Origin: Manis javanica | Lineage: Eukaryota; Chordata; Mammalia; Pholidota; Manidae | Direction: 5' to 3' | DNA: 64,000 nucleotides | NCBI RefSeq assembly: GCF_040802235.1 | Contig: NC_133157.1 | Span: 23,267,501 to 23,331,500 of the forward strand | In this document: positions 20,312 through 64,000 of the stretch, in pieces | Position numbering within the stretch: the first letter of the stretch is position 1 | Layout of the letters: each line of letters opens with the position of its first letter | Program-made: the position numbers and the translations under genes | The notes under the pieces: model-generated | Told to the model about the DNA's origin: nothing | What the model saw: only the letters and a program-made list of their open reading frames with translations | The model's database searches: none

Positions 20312-21549
20312 ATATTTTTAAATTTAAGTATCATTGATACACAGTCTTATGTTGGTTTCAAGTATACAACACAGTGGTTCAACAGTTACCTATATTACTA
20401 AATCCTTACCCCCACTACTGCAGCTACTATCCGTCAACATAGGAAGATGTTACAGAATCATTGACTATATTCTCTATGCTGTACTACTATCCCCGTGACC
20501 AACTGACATTATGATTGAAAATTTTTGTACCCTTTTATCCCCCTCACCTTCCCCAGTGACTCATTCCAACCTCTTTCCCATGGTAAGCACCAGTCACCTC
20601 TCGGTGTCTGAGTTTACTGCTATTTTGTTTGGTTTTGCTCTTAGATTCCACACGTAAGTGAAATCATATGGTATTTGTCTTTCTCTGCCTGGCTTGTTTC
20701 ACTTAGCATAATACCTCCTGTATATCCACGTTGTTGCAAATGGCAGGATATATTTTTTCTTTTTAATGGCTGAATAATATTTCCTGGTGTATATATACCA
20801 GATCTTCTTTATCCATTCATCTATTGATAGACACTTTGGTTGCTTCCATACCTTGGCCATTGTAAATAATGTGGCAATAAACATAGGGATGTGCATATCT
20901 TTTTGAATCAGGGATTTCTTTTTTCTCTCGGTAAATTCCTAGCGGGGAATTACTGGGTTAGATAGTATCTCTATTTTTAATTTTTTGAGGAACCTCCATA
21001 CTGCTCTCCACAGTGGCTGCACAAATTGACATTCCCACCAAAAGTGTAGGAGGGCTCCCTTTTCTCCACATCCTCTCCAACACTGTTAGTTCTTGTCTTT
21101 TGGATAGTGGCCTTATGACTGGTGTGAGGTGATATCTCATTGTGGTTTTGATTTGCGTTTCCCTGATGATTAGCCACGTGGAGCATCTTTTCATGTGCCT
21201 GTTGGGCATTTGTATTTCTTCTTTGGAGAAATGTCTGTTCAGGTCCTCTGCCCATTTTTTAATCAGGTTATTTGTTTTTGGTGTTGAGGCATATGAGTTC
21301 TTTATATATTTTGAATGTTAACCCCTTATTTGGTAAATCATTATTTACCAATGTATTCTCCCATACTGTAGGTCACCTTTTTGTTCTACTGATGATGTCC
21401 TTTGATGTACAGAGCTTTTTGGTTTGATGTAGTCCCACCTGTTCATTTTTTATTTTGTTTCCCTTGCCTGAGGGGATGTGTCCAGGAAAAAATTGCTCAT
21501 GCTTAGGTTAAGAGATTTTTGCCTGTTTTTTCCTAAGAGTTTTATGGTT
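20312..21549 (-). mobile_element. 5'-truncated L1 (ORF2 3' end plus 3' UTR) with 11-bp TSD
   Basis: The plus strand is the reverse complement of L1 ORF2's last 300 or so codons and the 3' UTR. Broken frames read [22 protein letters not shown] (in part) and WIKKIWYIYTRKYYSAIKK, matching the C-terminus of the two large L1s but with many stops and frameshifts. It is flanked by agaagcaactc at 20301-20311 and 21550-21560. Divergence places it well before L1-A and L1-B. It lacks the env/CTE module: its 3' UTR ends directly in a short degenerate tail. Confidence 0.9.
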
Positions 21550-47385: not shown

Positions 47386-47481
47386 AGTGGCCAGGTTTCC
47401 TGTGTCACAGAGGAGATTAGAAAAGTATTAAGGGGTCAGATCATATGGGGCATTACAGGCCATGGGGAAGACTTTGGATGT
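47386..47481 (-). repeat. L2 LINE fragment (part 2), target of L1-A
   Basis: The antisense L2 wording resumes (gggtcagatcatatggggca, ccatggggaagactttgga), then the L1-A tail begins. Any continuation lies beyond the window. Confidence 0.55.
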
Positions 47482-47484
47482 TTC

Positions 47485-47501
47485 TTTTTTTTTTTTTTTT
47501 T
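47485..47501 (-). terminator. Terminal poly(A) tail of L1-A (T run), preceded by AATAAA
   Basis: A 17-base T run ends L1-A, with the same AATAAA and GAGAGATGCC context as in L1-B. Left of it the older L2 sequence resumes. Confidence 0.9.
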
Positions 47502-47835
47502 GAGAGGGCATCTCTCATATTTATTGATGAAATGGTTGTTAACAACAATAAAATTCAGTATAGGGGGGTCAATGCTCAATGTACAATCATTAATCCATCT
47601 CAAGTCTAATTCTCATCAGTCTCCAATCTTCTGAAGCATAACGAACAAGTTCTTACATGGTGAACGAATTCTTACATAGTGAATAAGTTCTTACATGGTG
47701 AACAGTACAAGGGCATTCATCACAGAAACTTTCGGTTTTGATCACGCATTATGACCTATAAACAATCAGGTCAAATATGAATATTCGTTTGATTTTTGTA
47801 CTTGATTTATATGTGGATCCCACTTTTCTCCCTTT
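47502..47835 (-). other. Purine tract and LTR-like (U3-R) end of the L1-A 3' module
   Basis: In the sense orientation a purine tract (plus-strand ttttctcccttt, 47824-47835) is followed by about 320 bp. This ends in AATAAA (near 47519) and then poly(A) about 18 bp later. Order and length fit a retroviral polypurine tract followed by the U3-R part of a 3' LTR, with U5 missing, as expected for a sequence copied from polyadenylated RNA. The possible LTR start is a TG just after the purines. No second LTR or integration repeat exists to confirm it. Confidence 0.45.
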
Positions 47836-48090
47836 ATTATTATTATTATTTTTATTTTTAATAAAATGCTGAAGTGGTAGGTAGATGCAAGATAAAGGTA
47901 GAAAACATAGTTTAGTGCTGTAAGAGGGCAAATGTAGATGATCAGGTGATCAGGTGTGTGCCTATGGACTAATTATTAATCCAGGCTAGACAAGGGCAGC
48001 AAAACATCCACAGATGCAGAAGATTTCTCTCAAAGCAGGGGGGGTGAGGTTCTGAGCCTCACCTCTGTTGATACCCAAATTCTCACCTGA

Positions 48091-48179
48091 TGGCCCCCCT
48101 GCGACTGTGCCTGTCTTAGGTTGTTCCTCCCTTGAGGAATCTTACCCGTCTCTGGCTAACCAGTCATCTTCCGGGGCCA
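48091..48179 (-). promoter_or_regulatory. CTE-like RNA export element in the L1-A 3' module
   Basis: On the minus strand an 89-nt segment is bounded by complementary ends (TGGCCCC ... GGGGCCA). Inside is a perfect 6-bp hairpin (TTCCTC/GAGGAA, 48124-48139) flanked by GACGGGTAAGA (48140-48150) and CCTAAGACAGG (48110-48120). Such paired loop motifs are the hallmark of the constitutive transport element of type-D retroviruses, which binds NXF1/TAP and exports unspliced RNA. In those viruses it sits between env and the 3' LTR, as here. Only one loop is evident, not the two of the viral prototype. The assignment is by motif and position; the function is inferred. Confidence 0.6.
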
Positions 48180-48465
48180 TACAGGGAAATGTAAAGTTGG
48201 TAAGTGAGAGAGAAGCCATATTGTTTGCAAAGGTTAGCTTTTTACTTCTTTGCAGATTTATGCCCTGTGGCTTCTATGCCCAGCACTTGTCTCGAGGTAT
48301 CTTTACCACCTGGAGGAATTATGATACTCGGTAAATTCGATATGAGGCACGAATTCTATTTAAGGTTTGTAATTAGGAAGAAAGAAGAAAAGCTACAGAT
48401 GTAGCATATGGAAGGAAACATGGAAGGATTGATTATTTCTTTGACATATCCTCTTGTAGAGTACC

Positions 48466-48918
48466 TTAAGTATGTATAGGTTTTAAACTACTAACTAATT
48501 TGCACACACATATTAACATAATAGGAATACGGTGACATAAACAAAGCAAATCTATAATTACCATACATCTCCAGTGAAGCCAAGAAAACCATTTAGGCAC
48601 CCTAGGCATTTGTGAAAATTTGTCTATGATATGATGGATATTGTCCAACTGTACTTGAACAGTCTGAGAGAAATCAGACAAATTAAAGCAGCCTATTTCT
48701 GGGATCTGTTCACATCCCATATGTTTTTTTAACCGTAGATAGTCTATAGTCATACGATTTTGGAGTGCTACACCTTGCACCCCTCCCACCTCCTGGTTGA
48801 GTTCCAACAGTACAGATCCGGTCAAATTCGTTGTCTCACTGTATGCACATGCCAGTGTAGACATCTCCCTCCTCATTCCTATGACAAGTCCAGGAGATGG
48901 TGGGCTGGATGCAGCCAC
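48466..48918 (-). pseudogene. Retroviral env transmembrane-subunit remnant in the L1-A 3' module
   Basis: A 150-residue open frame, without an ATG at its upstream edge, has the layout of the TM (fusion) subunit of gamma-type envelopes, as found in type-D and alpha-like retroviruses. A heptad-rich segment contains LQNR (residues 52-55). A cysteine pair follows at 69 and 77 (GCEQIPEIGC), with Gly where these families have the first Cys of a CX6CC motif. Next come an NLS glycosylation site (79-81), a Trp-rich membrane-proximal stretch (110-116), one membrane segment (about 118-139) and a short tail. The surface subunit is essentially absent: only about 240 bp separate this frame from the preceding A tract. 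It cannot encode a complete envelope. Family assignment rests on motif layout only. Confidence 0.75.
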
Positions 48919-49159
48919 AACCGCAGCATCATCCAGATCCCTGTGGAGGCTTTTTGATGATTATCCCCCAGAACAAGTCCTCCAGAGAGTGCTGATGCCG
49001 GAAGCTCCTCCTCATATCGTATCTTAGTTCATTTCCTGGGTATCCAAGCTAGGCCTTGATCTTCTGCATAGAAACAAACAGACCCTTTGCCCACACTTTG
49101 ACATGCCCTCTATACCACTGTGCAGGACTCATTGGAGGTCAGCACACAGGAACTGCTGC

Positions 49160-49698
49160 TTTTTTTTTTTTTTTTTTTTTCTTTTATTAAGAGAAAGGAA
49201 TATTGTCAGAAAAGAGTACCTCCATAGCTGATCATCTGACACCCTTTAAGTGATCAACATTAAGGATATTTAAAGCATGCGTTGATCTTTGATTTACCAA
49301 TAGTTTTATCCTATCAAGGAGTAATCCCCCTTTTCTTTCTTTCTTTCTTTCTTTTTTTTTTTTTTTTAATTTTTAATCTATACTTACATGAAGAATACTA
49401 TGTTTACTATGCTCTCCCCTATATCAGGTCCCCCCTAACAACCACCTTACGGTTACTGTCCATCAGCTTAGGAAAATGTTGTAGAGTCACTACTTGTCCT
49501 CTCTGTGTTATGCAGCCCACCCTCCCCTTTCTCCCTCCCCCCATGCATGCTAATCTTAATACCCCCCTTCTTCTTCCCCCCCCTTATCCCTCCCTGCCCA
49601 CCCATCCTCCCCAGTTCCTTTCCCTTTGGTACCTGTTAGTCCATTTTTGGGTTCTGTAATTCCGCTGCTGTTTTGTTCCTTCAGTTTTTCCTTTGTTC
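49160..49698 (-). other. L1-A native 3' UTR with G-rich tract, A tract and linker
   Basis: This has the same layout as in L1-B. C runs on the plus strand at 49537-49610 are G-rich in the sense orientation. The first A tract is at 49352-49367 (T on the plus strand) with GAAAG repeats next to it. A linker of about 170 bp ends in AATAAA, and a second A tract is at 49160-49180. The shared layout shows that the double tail was already in the common source element. Confidence 0.75.
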
Positions 49699-51948
49699 CT
49701 ATACTCCTCCGATGAGTGAAATCATTTGGTATTTCTCTTTCTCCGCTTGGCTTATTTCACTGAGCATAATACTCTCCAGCTCCATCCATGTTGCTGCAAA
49801 TGGTTGGATTTTTCCACTTCTTATGGCTGAGTAGTATTCCATTGTGTATATGTACCACATTTTCTTTATCCATTCATCTACCGATGGACATTTAGGTTGC
49901 TTCCGATTCTTGGCTATTGTAAATAGTGCTGCGATTAACATAGGAGTGCATCTGTCTTTCTCAAATTTGATTTCTGCGTTCTTAGGGTAAATTCCTAGGA
50001 GTGGAATTCCTGGGTCAAATGGTAGGTCTGTTTTGAGCATTTTGATGAACGTCCATACTGCTTTCCACAATGGTTGAACTAATTTACATTCCCACCAGCA
50101 GCGTAGGAGGGTTCCCCTTTCTCCACAGCCTCGCCAACATTTGTTGTTGTTTGTCTTTTGGATGGCAGCTATCCTTACTGGTGTGAGGTGATACCTCATT
50201 GTAGTTTTAATTTGCATTTCTCTGATAATTAGCGATGTGGAGCATCTTTTCATGTGTCTCTTGGCCATCTGTATTTCTTTTTTAGAGAACTGTCTGTTCA
50301 GTTCCTCTGCCCATTTTTTAATTGGGTTATTTGTTTTTTGTTTGTTGAGGTGTGTGAGCTCTTTATATATTCTCGACGTCAAGCCTTTATTGGATCTGTC
50401 ATTTTCAAATATATTCTCCCATACTGTAGGGTTCCTTTTTGTTCTATTGATGGTGTCTTTCGCTGTACAGAAGCTTTTCAGCTTAATGTAGTCCCACTTG
50501 CTCATTTTTGCTGTTGTTTTCCTTGCCCGGGGAGATATGTTCAAGAAGAGGTCACTCATGTTTATGTCTAAGAGGTTTTTGCCTATGTTTTTTTCCAAGA
50601 GTTTAATGGTTTCATGACTTACATTTAGGTCTTTGATCCATTTTGAGTTTACCTTTGTATATGGGGTTAGACAATGGTCCAGTTTCATTCTCCTACGTGT
50701 AGCTGTCCAGTTTTGCCAGCACCATCTGTTGAAGAGACTGTCATTTTGCCATTGTATGTCCATGGCTCCTTTATCAAATATTAATTGACCATATATGTTT
50801 GGGTTAATTTCTGGAGTCTCTAATCTGTTCCACTGGTCTGTGGCTCTGTTCTTGTGCCAGTACCAAATTGTCTTGATTACTACGGCTTTGTAGTAGAGCT
50901 TGAAGTTGGGGAGTGAGATCTCCCCTACTTTATTCTTCTTTTTCAGGATTGCTTTGGCTATTCGGGGTCTCTGGTGTTTCCATATGAATTTTTGAATTAT
51001 TTGTTCCAATTCATTGAAGAATGTTGCTGGTAATTTGAGAGGGATTGCATCAAATTTGTATATTGCTTTCGGCAGGATGGCCATTTTGACGATATTAATT
51101 CTTCCTAGCCATGAGCATGGGATGAGTTTCCATTTATTAGTGTCCCCTTTAATTTCTCTTAAGAGTGACTTGTAGTTTTCAGAGTATAAGTCTTTCACTT
51201 CTTTGGTTAGGTTTATTCCTAGGTATTTTATTCTTTTTGATGCAATGGTGAATGGAATTGTTTTCCTGATTTCTCTTTCTATTGATTCATTGTTAGTGTA
51301 TAGGAAAGCTACAGATTTCTGTGTGTTAATTTTGTATCCTGCAACTTTGCTGTATTCCGATATCAGTTCTAGTAGTTTTGGAGTGGAGTCTTTAGGGTAT
51401 TTTATGTACAGTATCATATCATCTGCAAATAGTGACAGTTTAACTTCTTCTTTACCAATCTGGATTCCTTGTATTTCTTTGTTTTGTCTGATTGCTGTGG
51501 CTAGGACCTCCAGTACTATGTTAAATAACAGTGGGGAGAGTGGGCATCCCTGTCTGGTTCCTGATCTCAGAGGGAATGCTTTCAGCTTCTCGCTGTTCAG
51601 TATAATGCTGGCTGTGGGTTTATCATATATGGCCTTTATTATGTTGAGGTACTTGCCCTCTATTCCCATTTTGCTGAGAGTTTTTATCATGAATGGATGT
51701 TGAATTTTGTCAAATGCTTTTTCAGCATCTATGGAGATGATCATGTGGTTTTTGTCTTTCTTTTTGTTGATGTGGTGGATGATGTTGATGGATTTTCGAA
51801 TGTTGTACCATCCTTGCATCCCTGGGATGAATCCCACTTGATCATGGTGTATGATCCTTTTGATATACTGTTGAATTCTGTTTGCTAATATTTTATTGAG
51901 TATTTTTGCATCTACATTCATCAGGGATATTGGTCTGTAATTTTCTTT
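49699..51948 (-). pseudogene. L1-A ORF2, 3' part (reverse transcriptase and C-terminal domain)
   Basis: This holds the distal 750 or so codons of L1-A ORF2, open without a stop from the insertion point to 49699. The reverse-transcriptase core ([20 protein letters not shown]), thumb region and cysteine-rich region (CWRGCGERG ... RCWWEC) are all present. One cysteine-region residue differs from L1-B (R for H before CWWEC). The C-terminus ends SLIGGV, three residues longer than in L1-B, because the L1-B stop codon is a sense codon here. It is separated from its 5' half by the 8.8-kb L1-B insertion. Confidence 0.93.
51936..51948. repeat. Target-site duplication of L1-B, left copy
   Basis: The 13-bp sequence tgtaattttcttt lies immediately before the T-rich tail of L1-B and matches the copy at 60725-60737. 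It belongs to ORF2 of L1-A (codons of the KENYRP region). Exact length is ambiguous by a few T because the repeat runs into the T tail. Confidence 0.93.
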
Positions 51949-51949
51949 C

Positions 51950-51973
51950 TTTTTTTTTTTTTTTTTTTTTTTT
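51950..51973 (-). terminator. Terminal poly(A) tail of L1-B (T run), preceded by AATAAA
   Basis: A 24-base T run on the plus strand is the element's poly(A) tail. The sense-strand AATAAA lies about 18 bases before it, followed by GAGAGATGCC. This is where the module's own cleavage/polyadenylation took place. Confidence 0.9.
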
Positions 51974-52305
51974 GAGAGGGCATCTCTCATATTTATTGAT
52001 CAAATGGTTGTTAACAACAATAAAATTCAGTATAGGGGGGTCAATGCTCAATGTACAATCATTAATCCATCTCAAGCCTAATTCTCGTCAGTCTCCAATC
52101 TTCTGAAGCATAACGAACAAGTTCTTACATGGTGAACGAATTCTTACAGAGTGAATAAATTCTTACATGGTGAACAGTACAAGGGCATTCATCACAGAAA
52201 CTTTCGGTTTTGATCATGCAATATGACCTATAAACCATCAGGTCAAATATGAATATTCATTTGATTTTTGTACTTGATTTATATGTTGATCCCACATTTC
52301 TCCTA
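51974..52305 (-). other. Purine tract and LTR-like (U3-R) end of the L1-B 3' module
   Basis: This is collinear with 47502-47835. The sense strand reads AGGAGAAA then TGTGGGATC (around 52290-52305), a good fit to a purine tract followed by an LTR start. It continues for about 320 bp to AATAAA (near 51990) and the terminal poly(A). The purine run is shorter than in L1-A. Confidence 0.45.
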
Positions 52306-52559
52306 TTATTATTATTATTTTTATTTTTAATAAAATGCTGAAGTGGTAGGTAGATGCAAGATAAAGGTAGAAAACATAGTTTAGTGCTGTAAGAAGGCAA
52401 ATGTAGATGATCAGATGATCAGGTGTGTGCCTATGGACTAAGTATTAATCCAGGCTAGACAAGGGCAGCAAGACATCCACGGATGCAGAAGATTTCTCTC
52501 AAAGCAGGGGGGGTGAGGTTCTGAGCCTCACCTCTGTTGATCCCCAAATTCTCACCTGA

Positions 52560-52648
52560 TGGCCCCCCTGCGACTGTGCCTGTCTTAGGTTGTTCCTCCC
52601 TTGAGGAATCTTACCCGTCTCTGGCTAACCAGTCATCTTCCGGGGCCA
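52560..52648 (-). promoter_or_regulatory. CTE-like RNA export element in the L1-B 3' module
   Basis: This is identical base for base to 48091-48179 of L1-A, including the outer GGCCCC stem, the inner TTCCTC hairpin and both loop motifs. It lies in the same place, between the env remnant and the purine tract/LTR-like end. Confidence 0.6.
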
Positions 52649-52933
52649 TACAGGGAAATGTAAAGTTGGTAAGTGAGAGAGAAGCCATATTGTTTGCAAA
52701 GGTTAGCTTTTTACTTCTTTGCAGATTTATGCCCTGTGGCTTCTATGCCCAGCACTTGTCTCGAGGTATCTTTACCACCTGGAGGAATTATGATACTCGG
52801 TAAATTCGATATGAGGCACGAATTCTATTTAAGGTTTGTAATTAGGAAGGAAGAAGAAAAGCTATAGATGTAGCATATGAAGGAAAGTTGGGAGGATTGA
52901 TTATTTCTTTGACATATCTTCTTGTATAGTACC

Positions 52934-53375
52934 TTAAGTATGTATAGGTTTTAAACTACTAACTAATTTGCACACACATATTAACATAATAGGAATACGG
53001 TGACATAAACAAAGCAAATCTATAATTACCAGCCATCTCCAGTGAAGCCAAGAAAACCATTTAGGCACCCTAGGCATTTGTGAAAATTTATCTATGATAT
53101 GATGGATATTTTCCAACTGTACTTGAACCATCAGACAAATTAAAGCAGCCCATTTCTGGGATCTGTTCACATCCCATATGTTCTTTTAACCATTGATAGT
53201 CTATAGTCATGAGATTTTGGGGTGCTACAACTTGCACCCCTCCCAACCCCTGGTTGAGTTCCAACAGTACAGATCCAGTCAAATTCGTTGTCTCACCGTA
53301 TGCACATGCCAGCCTAGACATCTCCCTCCTCCTTCTTATGGCAAGTCCAGGAGACGGTGGGCTGGATGCAGCCAC
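52934..53375 (-). pseudogene. Retroviral env transmembrane-subunit remnant in the L1-B 3' module, frameshifted
   Basis: This is the second copy of the same remnant, collinear with 48466-48918. A net 11-bp loss near 53127 shifts the frame between the cysteine pair (GCEQIPEMGC) and the following heptad (LENIHHIIDKFSQ). The two halves therefore lie in different frames (53375-53088 and 53170-52934). The LQNR motif seen in L1-A reads PQNL here. The Gly in place of the first Cys of a CX6CC motif is shared with L1-A, so it predates both insertions. The membrane segment and tail are retained. It is a fossil with no coding capacity for an envelope. Confidence 0.75.
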
Positions 53376-53613
53376 AACCGCAGCATCGTCCGGATCCCTG
53401 TGGAGGCTTTTTGATGATCATCCCCCGGCACGAGTCCTCCAGAGAGTGCTGATGCCGGGAGCTCCTCCTCATATCGTATCTTAGTTCATTTTCTGGGTAT
53501 CCAAGCTAGGCCTTGATCTTCTGCGTAGAAACAAACAGACCCTTTGCCCACACTTTGACATGCCCTCTATACCACTGTGCAGAACTCATTGGAGGTCAGC
53601 ACACAGGAACTGC

Positions 53614-54152
53614 TTTTTTTTTTTTTTTTTTTTAATTAAGAGAAAGGAATATTATCAGAAAAGAGTACCTCCATAGCTGATCATCTGACACCCTTTAAGT
53701 GATCAACATTAAGGATATTTAAAGCATGCGTTGATCTTTGATTTACCAATAGTTTTATCCTGTTAAGGAGTAATCCCCCTTTTCTTTCTTTCTTTCTTTT
53801 CTTTTTTTTTAAATTTTTAATCTACACTTACCTGAAGAATACTATGTTTACTATGCTCTCCCCTATATCAGGTCCCCCCTAACAACCACATTACGGTTAC
53901 TGTCCATCAGCTTAGCAAAATGTGGTAGAGTCACTACTTGTCCTCTCTGTGTTGTGCAGCCCACCCTCCCCTTTCTCCCTCCCCCCCATGCATGCTAATC
54001 TTAATACCCCCCTTCTTCTTCCCCCCCCTTATCCCTCCCTGCCCACCCATCCTCCCCAGTTCCTTTCCCTTTGGTACCTGTTAGTCCATTTTTGGGTTCT
54101 GTAATTCTGCTGCTGTTTTGTTCCTTCAGTTTTTCCTTTGTTCCTATACTCC
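53614..54152 (-). other. L1-B native 3' UTR with G-rich tract, A tract and about 170-bp linker
   Basis: Downstream of ORF2 the sense strand has the purine- and G-rich tract typical of L1 3' UTRs (54006-54045 and 53971-53990 on the plus strand as C runs). It then has an A/GAAAG tract (T run 53802-53810), a unique linker of about 170 bp, and a second long A tract (T run 53614-53633). The retroviral-like module starts right after that tract. The G runs could form a G-quadruplex, as proposed for other L1 3' UTRs. Confidence 0.75.
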
Positions 54153-57100
54153 TCAGATGGGTGAAATCATTTGGTATTTCTCTTTCTCCGCTTGGCTTAT
54201 TTCACTGAGCATAATACTCTCCAGCTCCATCCATGTTGCTGCAAATGGTTGGATTTTTCCACTTCTTATGGCTGAGTAGTATTCCATTGTGTATATGTAC
54301 CACATCTTCTTTATCCATTCATCTACAGGTGGACATTTAGGTTGCTTCCAATTCTTGGCTATTGTAAATAGTGCTGCGATTAACATAGGAGTGCATCTGT
54401 CTTTCTCAAACTTGATTGCTGCGTTCTTAGGGTAAATTCCTAGGAGTGGAATTCCTGGGTCAAATGGTAGGTCTGTTTTGAGCATTTTGATGTACCTCCA
54501 TACTGCTTTCCACAATGGTTGAACTAATTTACATTCCCACCAGCAGTGTAGGAGGGTTCCCCTTTCTCCACAGCCTCGCCAACATTTGTTGTTGTTTGTC
54601 TTTTGGATGGCAGCTATCCTTACTGGTGTGAGGTGATACCTCATTGTAGTTTTAATTTGCATTTCTCTGATAATTAGCGATGTGGAGCATCTTTTCATGT
54701 GTCTCTTGGCCATCTGTATTTCTTTTTTAGAGAACTGTCTGTTCAGTTCCTCTGCCCATTTTTTAATTGGGTTATTTGTTTTTTGTTTGTTGAGGCGTGT
54801 GAGCTCTTTATATATTCTCGACGTCAAGCCTTTATTGGATCTGTCATTTTCAAATATATTCTCCCATACTGTAGGGTTCCTTTTTGTTCTATTGATGGTG
54901 TCTTTCGCTGTACAGAAGCTTTTCAGCTTAATGTAGTCCCACTTGCTCATTTTTGCTGTTGTTTTCCTTGCCCTGGGAGATTTGTTCAAGAAGAGATCAC
55001 TCATGTTTATGTCTAAGAGGTTTTTGCCTATGTTTTTTTCCAAGAGTTTAATGGTTTCGTGACTTACATTCAGGTCTTTGATCCATTTTGAGTTTACCTT
55101 TGTATATGGGGTTAGACAATGGTCCAGTTTCATTCTCCTACATGTAGCTGTCCAGTTTTGCCAGCACCATCTGTTGAAGAGACTATCATTTTGCCATTGT
55201 ATGTCCATGGCTCCTTTATCAAATATTAATTGACCATATATGTTTGGGTTAATTTCTGGGGTCTCTAATCTGTTCCACTGGTCTGTGGCTCTGTTCTTGT
55301 GCCAGTACCAAATTGTCTTGATTACTATGGCTTTGTAGTAGAGCTTGAAGTTGGGGAGTGAGATCCCCCCTACTTTATTCTTCTTTTTCAGGATTGCTTT
55401 GGCTATTCGGGGTCTCTGGTGTTTCCATATGAATTTTTGAATTATTTGTTCCAATTCATTGAAGAATGTTGCTGGTAATTTGAGAGGGATTGCATCAAAT
55501 TTGTATATTGCTTTCGGCAGGATGGCCATTTTGACGATATTAATTCTTCCTAGCCATGAGCATGGGATGAGTTTCCATTTATTAGTGTCCCCTTTAATTT
55601 CTCTTAAGAGTGACTTGTAGTTTTCAGAGTATAAGTCTTTCACTTCCTTGGTTAGGTTTATTCCTAGGTATTTTATTCTTTTTGATGCAATGGTGAATGG
55701 AATTGTTTTCCTGATTTCTCTTTCTATTGATTCGTTGTTAGTGTATAGGAAAGCTACAGATTTCTGTGTGTTGATTTTGTATCCTGCAACTTTGCTGTAT
55801 TCCGATATCAGTTCTAGTAGTTTTGGAGTGGAGTCTTTAGGGTTTTTTATGTACAGTATCATATCATCTGCAAATAGTGACAGTTTAACTTCTTCTTTAC
55901 CAATCTGGATTCCTTGTATTTCTTTGTTTTGTCTGATTGCCGTGGCTAGGACCTCCAGTACTATGTTAAATAACAGTGGGGAGAGTGGGCATCCCTGTCT
56001 GGTTCCCGATCTCAGTGGAAATGCTTTCAGCTTCTCGCTGTTCAGTATAATGCTGGCTGTGGGTTTATCATATATGGCCTTTATTATGTTGAGGTACTTG
56101 CCCTCTATTCCCATTTTGCTGAGAGTTTTTATCATGAATGGATGTTGAATTTTGTCAAATGCTTTTTCAGCATCTATGGAGATGATCATGTGGTTTTTGT
56201 CTTTCTTTTTGTTGATGTGGTGGATGATGTTGATGGATTTTCGAATGTTATACCATCCTTGCATCCCTGGGATGAACCCCACTTGGTCATGGTGTATGAT
56301 CCTTTTGATATACTGTTGAATTCTGTTTGCTAGTATTTTATTGAGTATTTTTGCATCTACATTCATCAGGGATATTGGTCTGTAATTTTCTTTTTTGGTG
56401 GGGTCTTTTCCTGGTTTTGGTATTAGGGTGATGTTGGCTTCATAGAATGAGTTTGGGAGTATTCCCTCTTCTTCTATTTTGTGGAACACTTTAAGGAGAA
56501 TGGGTATTATGTCTTCTCTGTGTGTCTGATAAAATTCCGAGGTAAATTCGTCCGGCCCCGGGGTTTTGTTCTTGGGTAGTTTTTTGATTACTGTTTCAAT
56601 TTCTTTGCTTGTAATTGGTTTGTTTAACTTTTGTGTTTCTTCCTTGGTCAGTCTTGGGAGGTTGTATTTTTCTAGGAGGTTGTCCATTTCTTCTAGGTTT
56701 TCCAGCTTGTTGGCATATAGGTTTTCATAGTAGTCTTTAATAATTCTTTGTATTTCTGTGGAGTCTGTCGTGATTTTTCAATTCTCATTTCTGATTATGT
56801 TGATTTGTGTTGACTCTCTTTTTCTCTTAATAAGTTGGGCTAGAGGCTTACCTATTTTGTTTATTTTCTCAAAGAACCAGCTCTTGGTTTCGTTGATTTT
56901 TGCTATTGTTTTATTCTTCTCCATTTTGTTTATTTCTTCTCTGATCTTTATTATGTCCCTCCTTCTGCTGACTTTAGGCCTCATTTGTTCTTCTTTTTCC
57001 AGTTTTAATAATTGTGATGTTAGACTATTCATTTGGGATTGTTCTTCCTTCTTCAAGTGTGCCTGGATTGCTATATACTTTCCTCTTAAGACTGCTTTCG

Positions 57101-57968
57101 CTGCATCCCACAGAAGTTGGGGCTTAGTGTTGTTGTTGTCATTTGTTTCTATATATTCCTTGATCTCTATTTTGATTTGTTCATTGATCCATTGATTATT
57201 TAGTAGCATGTTGTTAAGCCTCCATGTGTTTGTGAGCCTTTTTGTTTTCTTTGTAGAATTTATTTCTACTTTCATACCTTTGTGGTCTGAAAAATTGGTT
57301 GGTAGAATTTCAATATTGTGGAATTTACTGAGGCTCTTTTTGTGAGCTAGTATGTGGTCTATTCTGGAGAATGTTCCATGTGCACTTGAGAAGAATGTAT
57401 ATCCTGTTGCTTTTGGATGTAGAGTTCTATAGATGTCTATTAGGTCCATCTGTTCTAGTGTGTTGTTCAGTGCCTGTGTGTCTTTACTTATTTTCTGCCC
57501 GGTGGATCTATCCTTTGGGGTGAGTGGTGTGTTGAAGTCTCCTACAATGAATGCATTGCAGTCTATTTCCCTCTTTAGTTCTGTTAGTATTTGCTTCACA
57601 TATGCTGGTGCTCCTGTATTGGGTGCATATATATTTAGAATGGTTATATCCTCTTGTTGGACTGAGCCCTTTATCATTATGTAGTGGCCTTCTTTATCTC
57701 TTGTTACTTTCTTTGTTTTGAAGTCTATTTTGTCTGATATTAGTACTGCAACCCCTGCTTTCTTCTCACTGTTGTTTGCCTGAAATATGTTTTTCCATCC
57801 CTTGACTTTTAGTCTATGCTTATCTTTGGGTTTAAGGTGAGTTTCTTGTAAGCAGCATATAGATGGGTCTTGCTTTTTTATCCATTCTATTACTCTATGT
57901 CTTTTGATTGGTGCATTAAGTCCATTTACATTTAGGGTGACTATTGAAAGATATGTACTTATTGCCAT
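54153..57968 (-). pseudogene. L1-B ORF2 (endonuclease/reverse transcriptase), one nonsense codon
   Basis: The L1 ORF2 product nicks target DNA and reverse-transcribes L1 RNA at the nick. From the ATG at 57968 the frame runs about 1271 codons, matching the usual length (about 1275). Endonuclease motifs are visible: TLNVNGLN (residues 11-18), CLQETHL with the catalytic Glu at 42, VGDFNTPL and FSDHKG. Reverse-transcriptase motifs include [10 protein letters not shown] and FADDM at residues 699-703, where human L1 has its catalytic pair. A cysteine-rich C-terminal region (CWRGCGERG to HCWWEC) follows. The single defect is TGA at 56778-56780 (codon 397), where L1-A has GGA. It cuts the protein between endonuclease and reverse transcriptase. 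The frame stays open afterwards to 54153. I chose the ATG at 57968 because upstream in-frame codons offer no ATG. Confidence 0.95.
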
Positions 57969-58163
57969 TGCAGGCTTTAGATTCGTGGTTACCAAAGGTT
58001 CAAGGTTAGCTTCTTTAGTATATTACTGCCTAACTTAGCTCGCTTATTGAGCTGTTATATACACTGTCTGGAGATTCTTTTCTTCTCTCCCTTCTTATTC
58101 CTCCTCCTCCATTCTTCATATGTTCTGTGTTTTGTTCTGTGCTCTTTTTAGGGGTGCTCCCAT

Positions 58164-59087
58164 CTAGAGCAGTCCCTGTAGGATGCCCTGTAGAGGTGGT
58201 TTGTGGGAAGCAAATTCCCTCAGCTTTTGCTTGTCTGGGAATTGTTTGATCCCACCATCATATTTAAATGATAGTCGTGCTGGATACAGTATCCTTGGTT
58301 CAAGGCCCTTCTGTTTCATTGCATTAAGTATATCATGCCATTCTCTTCTGGCCTGTAGGGTTTCTGTTGAGAAGTCTGATGTTAGCCTGATTGGTTTTCC
58401 TTTATAGGTGACCTTTTTCTCTCTAGCTGCCTTTAGAACTCTTTCCTTGTCCTTGATCCTTGCCATTTTAATTATTATGTGTCTTGGTGTTGTCCTCCTT
58501 GGATCCTTTCTGTTGGGGGTTCTGTATAATTCCATGGTCTGTTCGATTATTTCCTCCCCCAATTTGGGGAAGTTTTCAGCAATTATTTCTTCAAAGACAC
58601 TTTCTATCCCTTTTCCTCTTTCTTCCTCTTCTGGTATCCCTATAATACGAATGTTTTTCCTTTTGTATTGGTCACATATTTCTCTTAGTGTTGTTTCATT
58701 CCTGGAGATCCTTTTATCTCTCTCTATGTCAGCTTCTATACGTTCCTGTTCTCTGGCTTCTATTCCTTCAATGGCCTCTTGCATCTTATCCATTCTGCTT
58801 ATAAATCCTTCCAGGGATTGTTTCACTTCTGTGATCTCTTTCCTGACATCTGTGATCTCCTTCCAGACTTCATCCCACTGCTCTTGCATTTTTCTCTGCA
58901 TCTCATCCCACTGCTCTTGCATTTTTCTCTGCATCTCATCCCATTGCTCTTGCATTTTTCTCTGCATCTCTGTCAGCATGTTCATGATTTTTATTTTGAA
59001 TTCTTTTTCAGGAGGACTAGTTAGGTCTGTCTCCTTCTCAGGTGTTGTCTCTGTGATCTTTGTCTGCCTGTAGTTTTGCCTTTTCAT
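58164..59087 (-). CDS. L1-B ORF1 protein (RNA-binding chaperone), intact
   Basis: This 307-residue frame encodes the L1 ORF1 nucleic-acid chaperone that trimerises and coats L1 RNA. The basic N-terminus is followed by a coiled coil that contains three tandem copies of an 11-residue unit (MQRKMQEQWDE, near residues 40-75). An RRM-like region follows (IRIIGIPEEEERGKG, near residue 150), then the C-terminal domain (ARREWHDILNAMKQKG and SFKYDG). The frame is open from an ATG to its stop, of a length usual for mammalian ORF1p (about 300-370). ORF2 starts about 195 bp downstream. The copy in L1-A has only two of the 11-residue units, which accounts exactly for its 11-residue shorter length. Intactness suggests recent activity, but ORF2 in cis is broken. 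Confidence 0.95.
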   Translation of the reverse strand: MKRQNYRQTKITETTPEKETDLTSPPEKEFKIKIMNMLTEMQRKMQEQWDEMQRKMQEQWDEMQRKMQEQWDEVWKEITDVRKEITEVKQSLEGFISRMDKMQEAIEGIEAREQERIEADIERDKRISRNETTLREICDQYKRKNIRIIGIPEEEERGKGIESVFEEIIAENFPKLGEEIIEQTMELYRTPNRKDPRRTTPRHIIIKMARIKDKERVLKAAREKKVTYKGKPIRLTSDFSTETLQARREWHDILNAMKQKGLEPRILYPARLSFKYDGGIKQFPDKQKLREFASHKPPLQGILQGLL

Positions 59088-59301
59088 GGTGATAGAGAGA
59101 GTTTGCAGAGCTGGTACAAGTGACCGCTGGAAGAGCTTCCCTTCTTGTTGGTTTGTAGCCTTTTCTTGGGATAATAGCGACCTCTAGTGGCTTGTGCTGG
59201 GCAGCTGTGCGCAGACAGGGCTTCTGCTTCCTGCCCAGTTGCTTTGGGGTTTATCTCCGCTGTTGCTGTGGGCTTGGCCTGGCTGGGGCTGTTCCTCCAA
59301 A

Positions 59302-60633
59302 ATGGTGGAGCCCCGTTGGAGGGGGAGCAGCCAGGAGACTATTTATCTCCGTAAGGGGCCTCTGTGCTCCCTGCTGCCCAGGGGGTTAGAGTGCCCAGAG
59401 ATCCCCAGATTCCCTGCTTCTGGTCTAAGTGACCTGTCCTGCCCCTTTAAGATTTCCAAAAAGCACTCTCCAAACCAAAACAACAGCAGCAACAATGAGA
59501 GAGAGAACAGAAAGAAAGAGAAAAAAAAAAGGAAAAAAAAGGAAAAAACAAGCGATTTTTTTTTTTTTTTTTTTTTTGTCCTCAGGTGCCGGTCCCAGGC
59601 ACCCGCTCACTGGTCCTGCTGCCCTGTCTCCCTAGCACCAGGGTCCCTGTCCTTTCAAGGCTTCCAAAAAGCACCCACCCACCGGTCCCGCAGGGAAGGA
59701 ACGCTCAATATTCTTTGTCCTCAGGCACTGGTCCCACGCACCCGCTCACCAGTCCCGCCTCCCTGCCTCCCTAGCACCGGGGTCCTTGTCCCTTTAAGGC
59801 TTCCAAAAAGCACTCGGCAAAAAGAGAGAAAAAAAAGGGGAAAAACGCGCGATTTCTTCCGTCCTCAGGTGCTGGTCTCAGGCACCCACCCACCGGTCCC
59901 ACAGGGAAAAATGCGGGATATTCTTTGTCCTCAGGTGCCGGTCCCAGGCACCCGCTCACCAGTCCCGCCACCCTGCCTCCCTAGCACCGGGGTCCCTGTC
60001 CCTTTTAGGCTTCCAAAAAGCACTCGCAGAAAAGAGAAAAAAAAAAGGGGAAAAACGCGCGATTTCCTCTGTCCTCAAGTGCCGGTCTCAGGCACCCGCC
60101 CACCGGTCCCGCAGGGAAAAATGGGGGATATTCTTTGTCCTCAGGCGCCGGTCCCAGCCACCCGCTCACCAGTCCCGCCACCGTGCCTCCCTAGCACTGG
60201 GGTCCCCGTCCCTTCAAGGCTTCCAAAAAGCGCTCGCCAAAAAGAGAAAAAAAAAAAAAAAGGGAAAAAACGCGCGACCTCCTCCGTCCTCAGGCACCGG
60301 TCTCAGGCACCCGCCCCCAGGTCTCGCAGGGAGAAACGCGGGATATTCTTTGTCCTCCAGCGCTGTTCCCAAGCACCTCCTCACCGGTCCCGCCACCCTG
60401 CTTCCCCAGCAACGGGGGCCCGTCCCTCTAAGGCTTCCAAAAAGCGCTCGCCAAAAAAAAAAAAAAAAAAAAAAACCGCTCCGGTTTCTCTCCACCCGCC
60501 GGGAGCCGGGGGGAGGGGCGCTCGGGCCCCGCCGGGCCGGGGCTTGTATCTTACCCCCTTCACAAGGCGCTGGGTTCTTGCAGGTGTGGATGTGGTCTGG
60601 ATGTTGTCCTGTGTCCTGTGGTCTCTATTTTAG
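59302..60633 (+). other. Long antisense open frame across the L1-B 5' UTR (443 codons)
   Basis: From the ATG at 59302 the plus strand stays open to 60633, antisense to the L1 5' UTR, giving 443 residues. The conceptual protein is a repeat of about 70 residues rich in Pro, Arg and Lys (for example VPGTRSPVPPPCLPSTG), because the 210-bp monomer is a multiple of three. Primate L1 has a short antisense frame (ORF0) in this location, but I see no sequence relation. In L1-A the equivalent frame stops after the first A-rich tract (about 63858). A chance product of stop-poor GC-rich repeats is the likelier reading. Confidence 0.3.
59453..60470 (-). repeat. Tandem monomer array in L1-B 5' UTR (about 210-bp period)
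   Basis: The anchor cttccaaaaag recurs at about 59453, 59661, 59800, 60010, 60220 and 60434. That gives periods of 208, 139, 210, 210 and 214 bp, so there are about five units, one short by roughly 70 bp. Each full unit is itself two related halves. Both contain a version of cctcaggtgccggtcccagg followed by cacccgc and ccggtcccgc. One half has the A-rich linker and the other the gggatattctttg segment. Confidence 0.85.
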
Positions 60634-60704
60634 GAAGATTTTTCTTTGTTATATTTTCATAGCTCTATGTGTTTTTGGGAGGAGATTTCCACTGCTCTAC
60701 TCAC

Positions 60705-60718
60705 GCCGCCATCTTGGC
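60705..60718 (-). promoter_or_regulatory. YY1-type site at the 5' end of L1-B
   Basis: Read on the minus strand this is GCCAAGATGGCGGC, the classic YY1 core (AAGATGGCGG), only a few bases inside the element start. The same motif in the same place directs accurate transcription start in human L1. Confidence 0.8.
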
Positions 60719-60724
60719 TCCGCT

Positions 60725-60737
60725 TGTAATTTTCTTT
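60725..60737. repeat. Target-site duplication of L1-B, right copy
   Basis: The same 13 bp occur directly after the first bases of L1-B's 5' UTR, and L1-A ORF2 continues from here. Together with the left copy this shows target-primed insertion of L1-B into L1-A. Confidence 0.93.
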
Positions 60738-62312
60738 TTTTGTGGGGTCTTTGCCTGGTTTTGGTATTAGGGTGATGTTGGCTTCATAGAATGAGTTTGG
60801 GAGTATTCCCTCTTCTTCTATTTTTTGGAACACTTTAAGGAGAATGGGTATTATGTCTTCTCTGTGTGTCTGATAAAATTCCAAAGTAAATCCGTCTGGC
60901 CCAGGGGTTTTGTTCTTGGGTAGTTTTTTGATTACCGTTTCAATTTCTTTGCTCGTAATTGGTTTGTTTAACTTTTGTGTTTCTTCCTTGGTCAGTCTTG
61001 GGAGGTTGTATTTTTCTAGGAAGTTGTCCATTTCTTCTAGGTTTTCCAGCTTGTTGGCATATAGGTTTTCATAGTAGTCTTTAATAATTCTTTGTATTTC
61101 TGTGGAGTCTGTCATTATTTTTCCATTCTCATTTCTGATTATGTTGATTTGTGTTGATTCTCTTTTTCTCTTAATAAGTTGGGCTAGAGGCTTATCTATT
61201 TTGTTTATTTTCTCAAAGAACCAGCTCTTGGTTTCATTGATTTTTGCTATTGTTTTATTCTTCTCAATTTTGTTTATTTCTTCTCTGATCTTTATTATGT
61301 CCCTCCTTCTGCTGACTTTAGGCCTCATTTGTTCTTCTTTTTCCAGTTTTGATAATTGTGATGTTAGACTATTCATTTGGGATTGTTCTTCCTTCTTCAA
61401 GTGTGCCTGGATTGCTATATACTTTCCTCTTAAGACTGCTTTCGCTGCGTCCCACAGAAGTTGGGGCTTAGTGTTGGTGTTGTCATTTGTTTCTATATAT
61501 TCCTTGATCTCTATTTTGATTTGTTCATTGATCCATTGATTATTTAGTAGCATGTTGTTAAGCCTCCATGTGTTTGTGAGCCTTTTTGTTTTCTTGGTAG
61601 AATTTATTTCTAGTTTTATACCTTTGTGGTCTGAAAAATTGGTTGGTAGAATTTCAATATTTTGGAGTTTACTGAGGCTCTTTTTGTGAGCTAGTATGTG
61701 GTCTATTCTGGAGAATGTTCCATGTGCACTGGAGAAGAATGTATATCCTGTTGCTTTTGGATGTAGAGTTCTATAGATGTCTGTTAGGTCCATCTGTTCT
61801 AGTGTGTTGTTCAGTGCCTGTGTGTCCTTACTTATTTTCTGCCCGGTGGATCTATCCTTTGGGGTGAGTGGTGTGTTGAAGTCTCCTAAGATGAATGCAT
61901 TGCAGTGTATTTCCCCCTTTAGTTCTGTTAGTATTTGTTTCACATATGCTGGTGCTCCTGTGTTGGGTGCATATATATTTAGAATGGTTATATCCTCTTG
62001 TTGGACTGAGCCCTTTATCATTATGTGGTGTCCTTCTTTATCTCTTGTTACTTTCTTTGTTTTGAAGTCTATTTTGTCTATTATTAGTACTGCAACCCCT
62101 GCTTTCTTCTCACTGTTGTTTGCCTGAAATATGTTTTTCCATCCTTTGACTTTTAGTCTGTACTTGTCTTTGGGTTTGAGGTGAGTTTCTTATAAGCAGC
62201 ATATAGATGGGTCTTGCTTTTTTATCCATTCTATTACTCTGTGTCTTTTGATTGGTGCATTCAGTCCATTTACATTTAGGGTGACTATTGAGAGATATGT
62301 ACTTGTTGCCAT
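60725..62312 (-). pseudogene. L1-A ORF2, 5' part (endonuclease and start of RT), nonsense at codon 41
   Basis: ORF2 begins with the ATG at 62312 (protein starting MATSTYLS). TAA at 62190-62192 replaces the CAA present in L1-B, so codon 41 is a stop, one residue before the catalytic endonuclease glutamate. The rest of the endonuclease and the region up to residue 526 stays open ([22 protein letters not shown]). At 60737/60725 the frame breaks into L1-B. Read straight through, it would continue for 20-odd codons into L1-B's antisense-oriented 5' end, which is not biological. The other half is at 49699-51948. Confidence 0.93.
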
Positions 62313-62507
62313 TGCAGGCTTTAGATTCGTGGTTACCAAAGGTTCAAGGTTAGCTTCTTTAGTATCTTACTGCCTAACTTAGCTCGCTTATTGAGCTGTT
62401 ATATACACTGTCTGGAGATTCTTTTCTTCTCTCCCTTCTTATTCTTCCTCCTCCATTCTTCATATGTTGTGTGTTTTGTTCTGTGCTCTTTTTAGGGGTA
62501 CTTCCAT

Positions 62508-63398
62508 TTAGAGCAGTCCCTGTAGGATGCCCTGTAGAGGTGGTTTGTGGGAAGCAAATTCCCTCAGCTTTTGCTTTTCTGGGAATTGTTTAATCCCACC
62601 ATCATATTTAAATGATAGTCGTGCTGAATACAGTATCCTTTGTTCAAGGCCCTTCTGTTTCATTGCATTAAGTATATCATGCCATTCTCTTCTGGCCTGT
62701 AGGGTTTCTGTCGAGAAGTCTGATGTTAGCCTGATGGGTTTTCCTTTATAGGTGACCTTTTTCTCTCTAGCTGCCTTTAAAACTCTTTCCTTGTCCTTGA
62801 TCCTTGCCATTTTAATTACTATGTGTCTTGGTGTTGTTCTCCTTGGATCCTTTCTGTTGGAGGTTCTGTGTAATTCCATGGTCTGTTTGATTATTTCCTC
62901 CCCCAGTTTGGGGAAGTTTTCAGCAATTATTTCTTCAAAGAGACTTTCTATCCCTTTTCCTCTTTCTTCTTCTTCTGGTATCCCTATAATACGAATATTA
63001 TTCCTTTTGGCTTGGTCACATAGTTCTCTTATTGTTGTTTCATTCCTGGAGATCCTTTTATCTCTCTCTATGTCAGCTTCTATACGTTCCTGTTCTCTGG
63101 CTTCTATTCCTTCAATGGACTCTTGCATCTTATTCATTCTGCTTATAAATCCTTCCAGGGATTGTTTCACTTCTGTGATCTCCTTCCTGACATCTGTGAT
63201 CTCCATCTGGACTTCATCCCACTGCTCTTGCATTTTTCTCTGCATCTCATCCCATTGCTCTTGCATTTTTCTGTGCATCTCTGTCAGCATGTTCATGATT
63301 TTTATTTTGAATTCTTTTTCAGGACGACTGGTTAGGTCTTTCTCCTTCTCAGGTGTTGTCTCTGTGGTCTTTGTCTGCCTGTAGTTTTGTCTTTTCAT
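62508..63398 (-). CDS. L1-A ORF1 protein, intact
   Basis: This 296-residue open frame is the L1-A counterpart of the ORF1 RNA chaperone, collinear with L1-B ORF1 throughout. The coiled coil carries two 11-residue units (one as MHRKMQEQWDE, one as MQRKMQEQWDE) instead of three. The RRM-like segment (NNIRIIGIPEEEERGKG) and the C-terminal domain (STETLQARREWHD) are complete. It remains open even though L1-A is the older of the two elements and its ORF2 is destroyed. Its 5' UTR runs off the window. Confidence 0.93.
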   Translation of the reverse strand: MKRQNYRQTKTTETTPEKEKDLTSRPEKEFKIKIMNMLTEMHRKMQEQWDEMQRKMQEQWDEVQMEITDVRKEITEVKQSLEGFISRMNKMQESIEGIEAREQERIEADIERDKRISRNETTIRELCDQAKRNNIRIIGIPEEEERGKGIESLFEEIIAENFPKLGEEIIKQTMELHRTSNRKDPRRTTPRHIVIKMARIKDKERVLKAAREKKVTYKGKPIRLTSDFSTETLQARREWHDILNAMKQKGLEQRILYSARLSFKYDGGIKQFPEKQKLREFASHKPPLQGILQGLL

Positions 63399-64000
63399 GG
63401 TGATAGAGATAGTGTGCAGAGCTGGTACAAGTGACCGCTGGAAGAGCTTCCCTTCTTGTTGGTTTGTGGCCTTCCTCTCCTGGGAGAACAGCGACCTCTA
63501 GTGGCCTGTGCTGGGCAGCTGTGTGCAGACAGGGCTTCTGCTTCCTGCCCGGTTGCTATGGGGTTTATCTCCGCTGTTGCGGTGGGCATGGCCTGGCTGG
63601 GGCTGCTCCTCCAAAATAGTGGAGCCCCGTTGGAGGGAGAGCGGCTGGGAGGCTATTTATCTCCCTAAGGGGCCTCTGTGCTCCCTGCTGCCCAGGGGGT
63701 TAGAGTGCCCAGAGATCCCCAGATTCCCTGCCTCTGGTCTAAGTGACCTGTCCTACCCCTTTAAGACTTCCAAAAAGCACTCTCCAAACCAAAACAACAA
63801 CAGCAACAATGAGAGAGGGAACAGAAAAAAAAGAAAAAAGAAAAGAAAAAACACGTAATTTTTTTTTTTTTTCCTCAGGCGCCGGTCCCAGGCACCCGCT
63901 CACTAGTCCTGCTGCCCTGCCTCCCTAGCACCAGGGTCTCTGTCCCTTCAAGGCTTCCAAAAAGGACCCCCCCACTGGTCCCGCAGGGAAAAACGCGTGA
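63399..64000 (-). promoter_or_regulatory. L1-A 5' UTR, ORF1-proximal part, truncated by window end
   Basis: This is collinear with the ORF1-proximal part of the L1-B 5' UTR: the same leader, the A/T-rich segment near 63830-63870 and the first monomer anchors at 63767 and 63954 (187-bp spacing). The YY1-type start and most of the monomer array must lie beyond 64000. Confidence 0.85.

Follow-up and report, generated by a model that had tools for sequence, protein, structure and literature searches.

The window analyzed here is a 64,000-nt stretch of the Manis javanica genome (GCF_040802235.1, contig NC_133157.1, forward-strand positions 23,267,501–23,331,500), and all positions below are those of the window. 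Two nested L1 elements, L1-A and L1-B, occupy 64000–47485 on the minus strand, with L1-B lying within open reading frame (ORF) 2 of L1-A. Both end in the same module of ~1.65 kb, which has homology to a retroviral envelope transmembrane (TM) protein and is followed in each case by poly(A). We propose that they belong to an autonomous-type L1 lineage that has kept this foreign tail through copying and whose transcripts would end at a poly(A) site captured from a retrovirus, a reading to which we give a probability of about 0.7.

Two nested L1 elements with the same 3' module

The path of L1-A runs from its 5' part at the window edge to a break in ORF2 at 60725, resumes at 51948 and finishes in poly(A) at 47485. 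The elements of the pair and of their 3' ends are as follows.

60738–64000, minus strand: 5' part of L1-A (piece of the 5' untranslated region (UTR), ORF1, start of ORF2), delimited by its open frames and 94.4% identical to L1-B over 3327 columns; the element extends beyond the window edge on its 5' side
60725–60737, minus strand: target-site duplication (TSD) copy on the 5' side of L1-B, AAAGAAAATTACA, 13 bp
51949–60724, minus strand: L1-B, a nested insertion of about 8.8 kb with the module at its end and a TSD copy on both sides; 8768 bases from 60724 to 51957
51974–53613, minus strand: retrovirus-derived module, copy B, from window BLAST and alignment with copy A
51936–51948, minus strand: TSD copy on the 3' side of L1-B, AAAGAAAATTACA, 13 bp
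47485–51948, minus strand: 3' part of L1-A (rest of ORF2, 3' UTR, 150-nt segment, module, poly(A)), starting with the 3' TSD copy and 97.0% identical to L1-B over 4473 columns
49331–49377, minus strand: first internal A-rich tract of L1-A, with ATTAAA at its start; probable original L1 3' end
49181–49330, minus strand: 150-nt segment between the A-tracts, last bases AATAAAAG; also present in L1-B (ATTAAA there), with 5 substitutions in 177 columns including part of the tract
49160–49180, minus strand: second internal A-tract, 21 A, from reading of the sequence
47502–49159, minus strand: retrovirus-derived module, copy A, with 57 substitutions in 1640 aligned columns and 4 gaps relative to copy B
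47485–47501, minus strand: final poly(A) of L1-A, 17 A, from reading of the sequence

The initial annotation described the two L1s as separate insertions that share one module inherited from a common source and mobilized at least twice, and our analysis bears this out. In BLAST, the module copies (49159–47502 in L1-A and 53613–51974 in L1-B) are 95.8% identical over 1673 columns. No further full match to the module was found in the window, the other matches being 29-bp repeats inside the two copies, and one of the four gaps between the copies comes from a GCA that copy A alone has at its start. L1-B is inserted in L1-A ORF2 with its own 13-bp TSD, and the poly(A) of its module abuts the TSD copy directly, such that a single duplication encloses L1 and module as a unit. 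Since this TSD spans L1-B from the start of the 5' UTR to the module poly(A), the whole L1-plus-module RNA was evidently retrotransposed. The same junctions in both elements, the 3.5% substitution between the copies and the TSD-bounded unit of L1-B plus module support a common source and at least two insertions. The TSD of L1-A is out of view because the 5' end of this element leaves the window. An older L1 fragment at 20657–21549, ~80% identical in the window BLAST, is without the module on inspection of the downstream sequence.

The order ORF2, 3' UTR, A(n), ~150 nt, A(n), module, A(n) is common to both copies, and each module is preceded by L1 ORF2 and 3' UTR on the same strand. There are thus three stacked ends, each consisting of a poly(A) hexamer and an A-tract, which is the form taken by stacked 3' additions; the hexamer ahead of the second A-tract is AATAAA in L1-A and ATTAAA in L1-B. 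The 150-nt segment seems to have been added to the 3' end of this L1 lineage earlier, in a separate event. The module, which had been described as part of the L1's own 3' UTR, must therefore be placed elsewhere: it sits downstream of the L1 3' end and of two internal A-tracts, and is not plain L1 3' UTR.

Upstream, L1-A has open frames for ORF1 (63497–62508) and ORF2 (from 62189). When four frames were given to Pfam, RVT_1 (9.3e-47) was found in L1-A ORF2, and Exo_endo_phos (1.9e-24) and the L1 ORF1 RNA-binding domain (8.9e-26) in L1-B. A single in-frame stop (56778) divides L1-B ORF2 into 414 and 874 codons; L1-A ORF2 is open at that site, has its own stop in the endonuclease part (about 62190) and is cut by the L1-B insertion. 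The 5' UTR of L1-B contains three tandem copies of a 210-bp unit (59708–60337), the second 91% and the third 62% like the first, an array that may be a repeat-built promoter, and a related 210-bp-type unit is found in L1-A at 63859–63990, ahead of the window end. L1-B begins at 60724–60700 with AGCGGAGCCAAGATGGCGGC, which we take to resemble the YY1 site at the human L1 start and to be a sign of full-length insertion.

Anatomy of the module

Within the module, the following features are found in copy A.

48466–48960, minus strand: envelope TM remnant, open in copy A (164 aa) and frame-broken in copy B; matches ASLV TM
48013–48380, minus strand: conserved block from the alignment of copies A and B, consisting of a 307-nt identical run (48380–48074), one difference and 60 identical positions
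48103–48161, minus strand: CTE-like (constitutive transport element-like) half-site, a hairpin with AAGACA (48117–48112) in an internal loop, 59 nt folded alone
47823–47835, minus strand: purine tract, AAAGGGAGAAAAG, just ahead of the TG of the LTR-like (long terminal repeat-like) segment and resembling a polypurine tract (PPT), by inspection
47502–47822, minus strand: LTR-like segment, running for 321 nt between its TG and the poly(A) site as delimited by inspection; U5 absent
47637–47703, minus strand: three 29-nt repeats in the U3-like part, starting every 19 nt, from a repeat search
47520–47525, minus strand: AATAAA, 18 nt ahead of the final poly(A) of L1-A, from reading of the sequence

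The TM remnant provides the homology that identifies the module. Compared with a library of solved structures (PDB), the copy A frame gave ASLV TM as the best of the 27 matches listed (E 4.5e-9), with weaker rows for several GP2 proteins (best 0.00085; some named Ebola or RAVV) and Syncytin-2 (0.11). The frame of copy B is broken by a gap, and its first piece still matches ASLV TM (E 2.9e-5); its second piece had no relevant match in the structure-library search. The reversed copy A sequence, used as a control, returned no envelope match, only beta-glucuronidase at 0.55. The cysteine motif aligned to that of ASLV reads GC in both copies, as opposed to the two adjacent cysteines of the retroviral TM motif CX6CC (PMC12584738). 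An integrase C-terminus was also sought in the first 250 nt of the module, and the pieces between stops (2 in PDB, 4 in Pfam) had no relevant match, although pieces of 26 and 49 aa are weak evidence either way.

Could the module be a long ordinary L1 3' UTR whose retroviral features arose by chance? It does lie within the L1 unit, yet a 3' UTR and A-tracts of the L1 precede it, and TM homology at 4.5e-9 with no envelope match in the reversed control makes this explanation barely credible. The retrovirus involved is a different matter. The initial annotation proposed a type-D-like retroviral 3' end on an L1, and whereas the L1/retrovirus chimera holds, the type D assignment is less secure, the best TM match being to the alpharetrovirus ASLV; none of the 27 PDB matches listed is type D by name, several being named only 'Envelope glycoprotein'.

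Each module copy has one AAGACA on the sense strand (48117–48112 in copy A, 52586–52581 in copy B), located after a short hairpin in the region that separates TM from the purine tract. AAGACA is reported to be the loop motif through which known transport elements bind NXF1 (PMC4174252), and a known CTE has two internal loops (PMC7551171). Folded alone, the 59-nt core has AAGACA in an internal loop between an outer stem and an inner hairpin, but the minimum-energy fold differs in an 86-nt or 368-nt context. The 86-nt stretch folds ordinarily (96 of 500 shuffles as good) and the 161-nt region around the motif has a folding z-score of -1.66, equaled by 12 of 200 dinucleotide shuffles, while none of 200 single-base shuffles, which are a weaker control, folded as well as the 368-nt block. 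The hexamer is not significant by itself (70 in the window against 59 expected); for CCTAAGACAGG with at most one mismatch, three occurrences were found against 1.57 expected, the two exact ones being those of the two module copies. Rfam gave no match at the gathering threshold anywhere in the window, and at E up to 10 gave eight matches in 47480–49400, all far under the cut-offs and none retroviral by name. The RNA export element suggested earlier is thus not demonstrated: with one AAGACA half-site, no Rfam match above threshold and a fold that depends on context, the sequence is best described as a plausible half-site rather than an established CTE. Just 3' of it, at 48102–48036 and mostly within the conserved block, is a strong G-run/C-run hairpin with an inner stem.

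The half-site lies within the 307-nt identical run, the longest in the whole 3' alignment; the next, of 280 nt, is in ORF2. When the 61 events were permuted within the 1644 columns of the module, a run of 307 nt was reached in 2 of 20,000 permutations, and permutation over all 4408 columns of the 3' part, slow ORF2 included, gave P 0.029, values that apply to a block chosen after looking and to two sequences only. The run may reflect constraint or gene conversion, between which two sequences do not discriminate.

The remainder of the module is arranged like the 3' end of a retrovirus (purine run, TG, 321 nt, AATAAA), an anatomy by which the 321-nt segment would be an LTR and its 29-nt repeats possible enhancer repeats. 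In the window, the LTR-like segment is confined to the ends of the two module copies with L1 between them, and does not occur as paired LTRs around gag-pol. No match to the module was found in a phage collection, and 47 pattern matches of the envelope ORF in viral contigs yielded 0 confirmed, in a collection with few or no mammal sequences in both cases. In both copies AATAAA is followed after 18 nt by poly(A), so the foreign poly(A) site that had been claimed is there, and a retroviral-style site now ends the L1. The module order originally described is likewise in place for TM homology, hairpin region with AAGACA, purine tract, AATAAA and poly(A), the LTR within it being a call made from anatomy.

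Inheritance and proposed capture of the tail

Pairwise comparison of L1-A with L1-B gave a synonymous divergence (dS) of 0.060, a nonsynonymous divergence (dN) of 0.012 and dN/dS of 0.197 for ORF2, and dS 0.079, dN 0.033 and dN/dS 0.411 for ORF1. The low dN/dS suggests that protein function was under selection in the ancestors of these copies, and hence descent through coding-competent L1s. Divergence of the module (57/1640, or 3.5%) is near the dS of 4.8% in the adjacent 3' part of ORF2 (0.048, against 0.079 in the 5' part), as expected if both traveled together. Judged from these sequence comparisons, the module was most likely inherited alongside coding-competent L1s.

Divergence is nonetheless uneven, both along the elements (5' UTR 7.6%, ORF2 3' part 1.5%) and within the module (25 substitutions in 483 columns of TM, 13 in 627 columns from TM to the purine tract). 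This unevenness, the identical runs of 280 and 307 nt and the presence of two copies only are what might be cited for an independent repeat, outside the L1 lineage, that is shared here through local gene conversion between nested neighbors. We think this very unlikely because the TSD bounds L1-B and module together and the module poly(A) runs straight into the TSD copy.

The captured-tail reading is supported by the same junctions and order in both copies and by TM homology with a clean reversed control. In the scenario that we favor, transcription from the L1 promoter of an ancestor would have run past the L1's own weak poly(A) hexamers into an adjoining 5'-truncated piece of endogenous retrovirus (ERV) comprising TM remnant, RNA element, purine tract, U3 and R, and polyadenylation would have occurred at the AATAAA of the LTR. 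L1 ORF2 protein would then have primed on that poly(A) by target-primed reverse transcription and copied L1 and foreign tail to new sites in the manner of a 3' transduction, after which the tail would have passed to at least the two insertions seen here. The 150-nt segment would, in this order of events, have been added before the module.

The same end product is expected if the first step differed. The first capture could equally have occurred by L1-mediated insertion of a 5'-truncated retroviral transcript into the A-rich tail of an L1, with later L1 transcripts using the new poly(A) signal. L1 endonuclease prefers A/T-rich sites, the module has an internal start and stops precisely at a poly(A) site, and the 150-nt segment has the same form; a TSD inside an A-tract, though, would be indistinguishable, and nothing here separates such a tail insertion from transduction. 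We regard it as a possible route, to be entertained tentatively. Alternatively, L1 reverse transcriptase may have switched from retroviral RNA to L1 RNA during one insertion, and the resulting chimera become a source element. L1-RNA chimeras of such origin are known (PMC6500023, PMC13174262), but two successive A-flanked segments would need two events, both surviving, and these two stacked segments make template switching unlikely.

Several points weigh against transduction of a captured retroviral tail as we propose it. It is drawn from two copies in one window, and template switching, or a retroviral transcript inserted into the tail of an L1, would leave the same anatomy. Gene conversion between the nested neighbors, made possible by the uneven divergence, would weaken the argument from inheritance. 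Both L1s have a stop within ORF2 and neither is itself shown to be active. Pfam found no envelope family for the TM frame, and the LTR part had no DNA match in phages, IMG/VR contigs or prokaryote genomes, collections that say little about a mammal.

A stronger version of our proposal is that the retroviral 3' end serves an autonomous L1 lineage as its working 3' end, with the LTR poly(A) signal and the conserved RNA element, perhaps through NXF1-type export, acting in the L1's own life cycle, as an autonomous counterpart of the SVA SINE-R. We consider this doubtful at present. Transduction of 3' sequence by L1 is a familiar process, but a lineage in which a large foreign 3' end persists over several insertions raises the question of whether a retrotransposon benefits from capturing a poly(A) site or RNA element, and the conserved 307-nt block makes this question of benefit directly testable through variation across genomic copies.

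Relation to known chimeric elements

Among the matches listed in our literature search, no title or abstract start described an L1 lineage whose 3' end is a retroviral env-LTR piece, coverage of subscription papers and preprints being thin and the result no proof of absence. A mouse construct joining L1 ORF2 to a MaLR LTR models chimeras possibly derived from template switching or transduction (PMC6500023), and a catalogue of L1 chimeras covers those with small RNAs, with Alu and with pieces of mRNA (PMC13174262); neither paper has an L1 lineage with an env-LTR 3' end in the parts considered, and the words pangolin, Manis and ERV are absent from the main text of PMC13174262.

In type D retroviruses the CTE lies just downstream of env and the PPT just downstream of the CTE (PMC3621094, PMC11379458), and the LTR is about 300 nt (PMC3621094); that of pangolin betaretroviruses is 387 nt (PMC12584738). 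The module resembles type D in its AAGACA motif and in the placement of the element between env and PPT, and the 321-nt LTR-like segment is compatible with both LTR lengths since U5 is missing, although this is no proof of kinship. It differs in that TM best matches the alpharetroviral ASLV, in its single AAGACA half-site and in that no gag, pro or pol was shown in the module. The 3' region of human L1 has been reported to hold an NXF1-binding CTE (PMC3045867), which is native L1 sequence, unlike the half-site here. When the native element was put back into a synthetic L1, retrotransposition was not increased (1.1–1.3 against 2.0–2.8 without it; PMC3045867), a lack of gain that counts against an export benefit of the module.

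Read-through past the L1 signal to a downstream signal is the described route of 3' transduction (PMC6035798). As in 3' transduction lineages, at least two insertions here share non-L1 sequence that follows the poly(A) signal of the L1, is bounded by A-tracts and closes with another such signal and a poly(A) tail. They depart from the usual case in that what they carry resembles the 3' end of a retrovirus, and sequence was apparently added twice in succession. An arrangement that could give rise to such a transduction has been described in Manis pentadactyla, where ERV-Gamma.b9 contains an almost complete L1 between env and 3' LTR (PMC12584738), but that is a gamma-type element, and the likeness is drawn from its published description.

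Another close parallel is SVA, whose SINE-R is an env-3' LTR piece (PMC12593883) and which is mobilized by L1 proteins (PMC7353768). The module shows TM homology and, as judged from anatomy, a putative LTR part that ends in poly(A). SVA is non-autonomous and has Alu-like and variable number tandem repeat (VNTR) parts, whereas the retroviral end described here is fused to an L1 with its own ORF1 and ORF2 domains upstream. Given the success of SVA as an L1-mobilized element with such a 3' end, the parallel would suggest that retroviral 3' ends make good tails for L1-driven copying.
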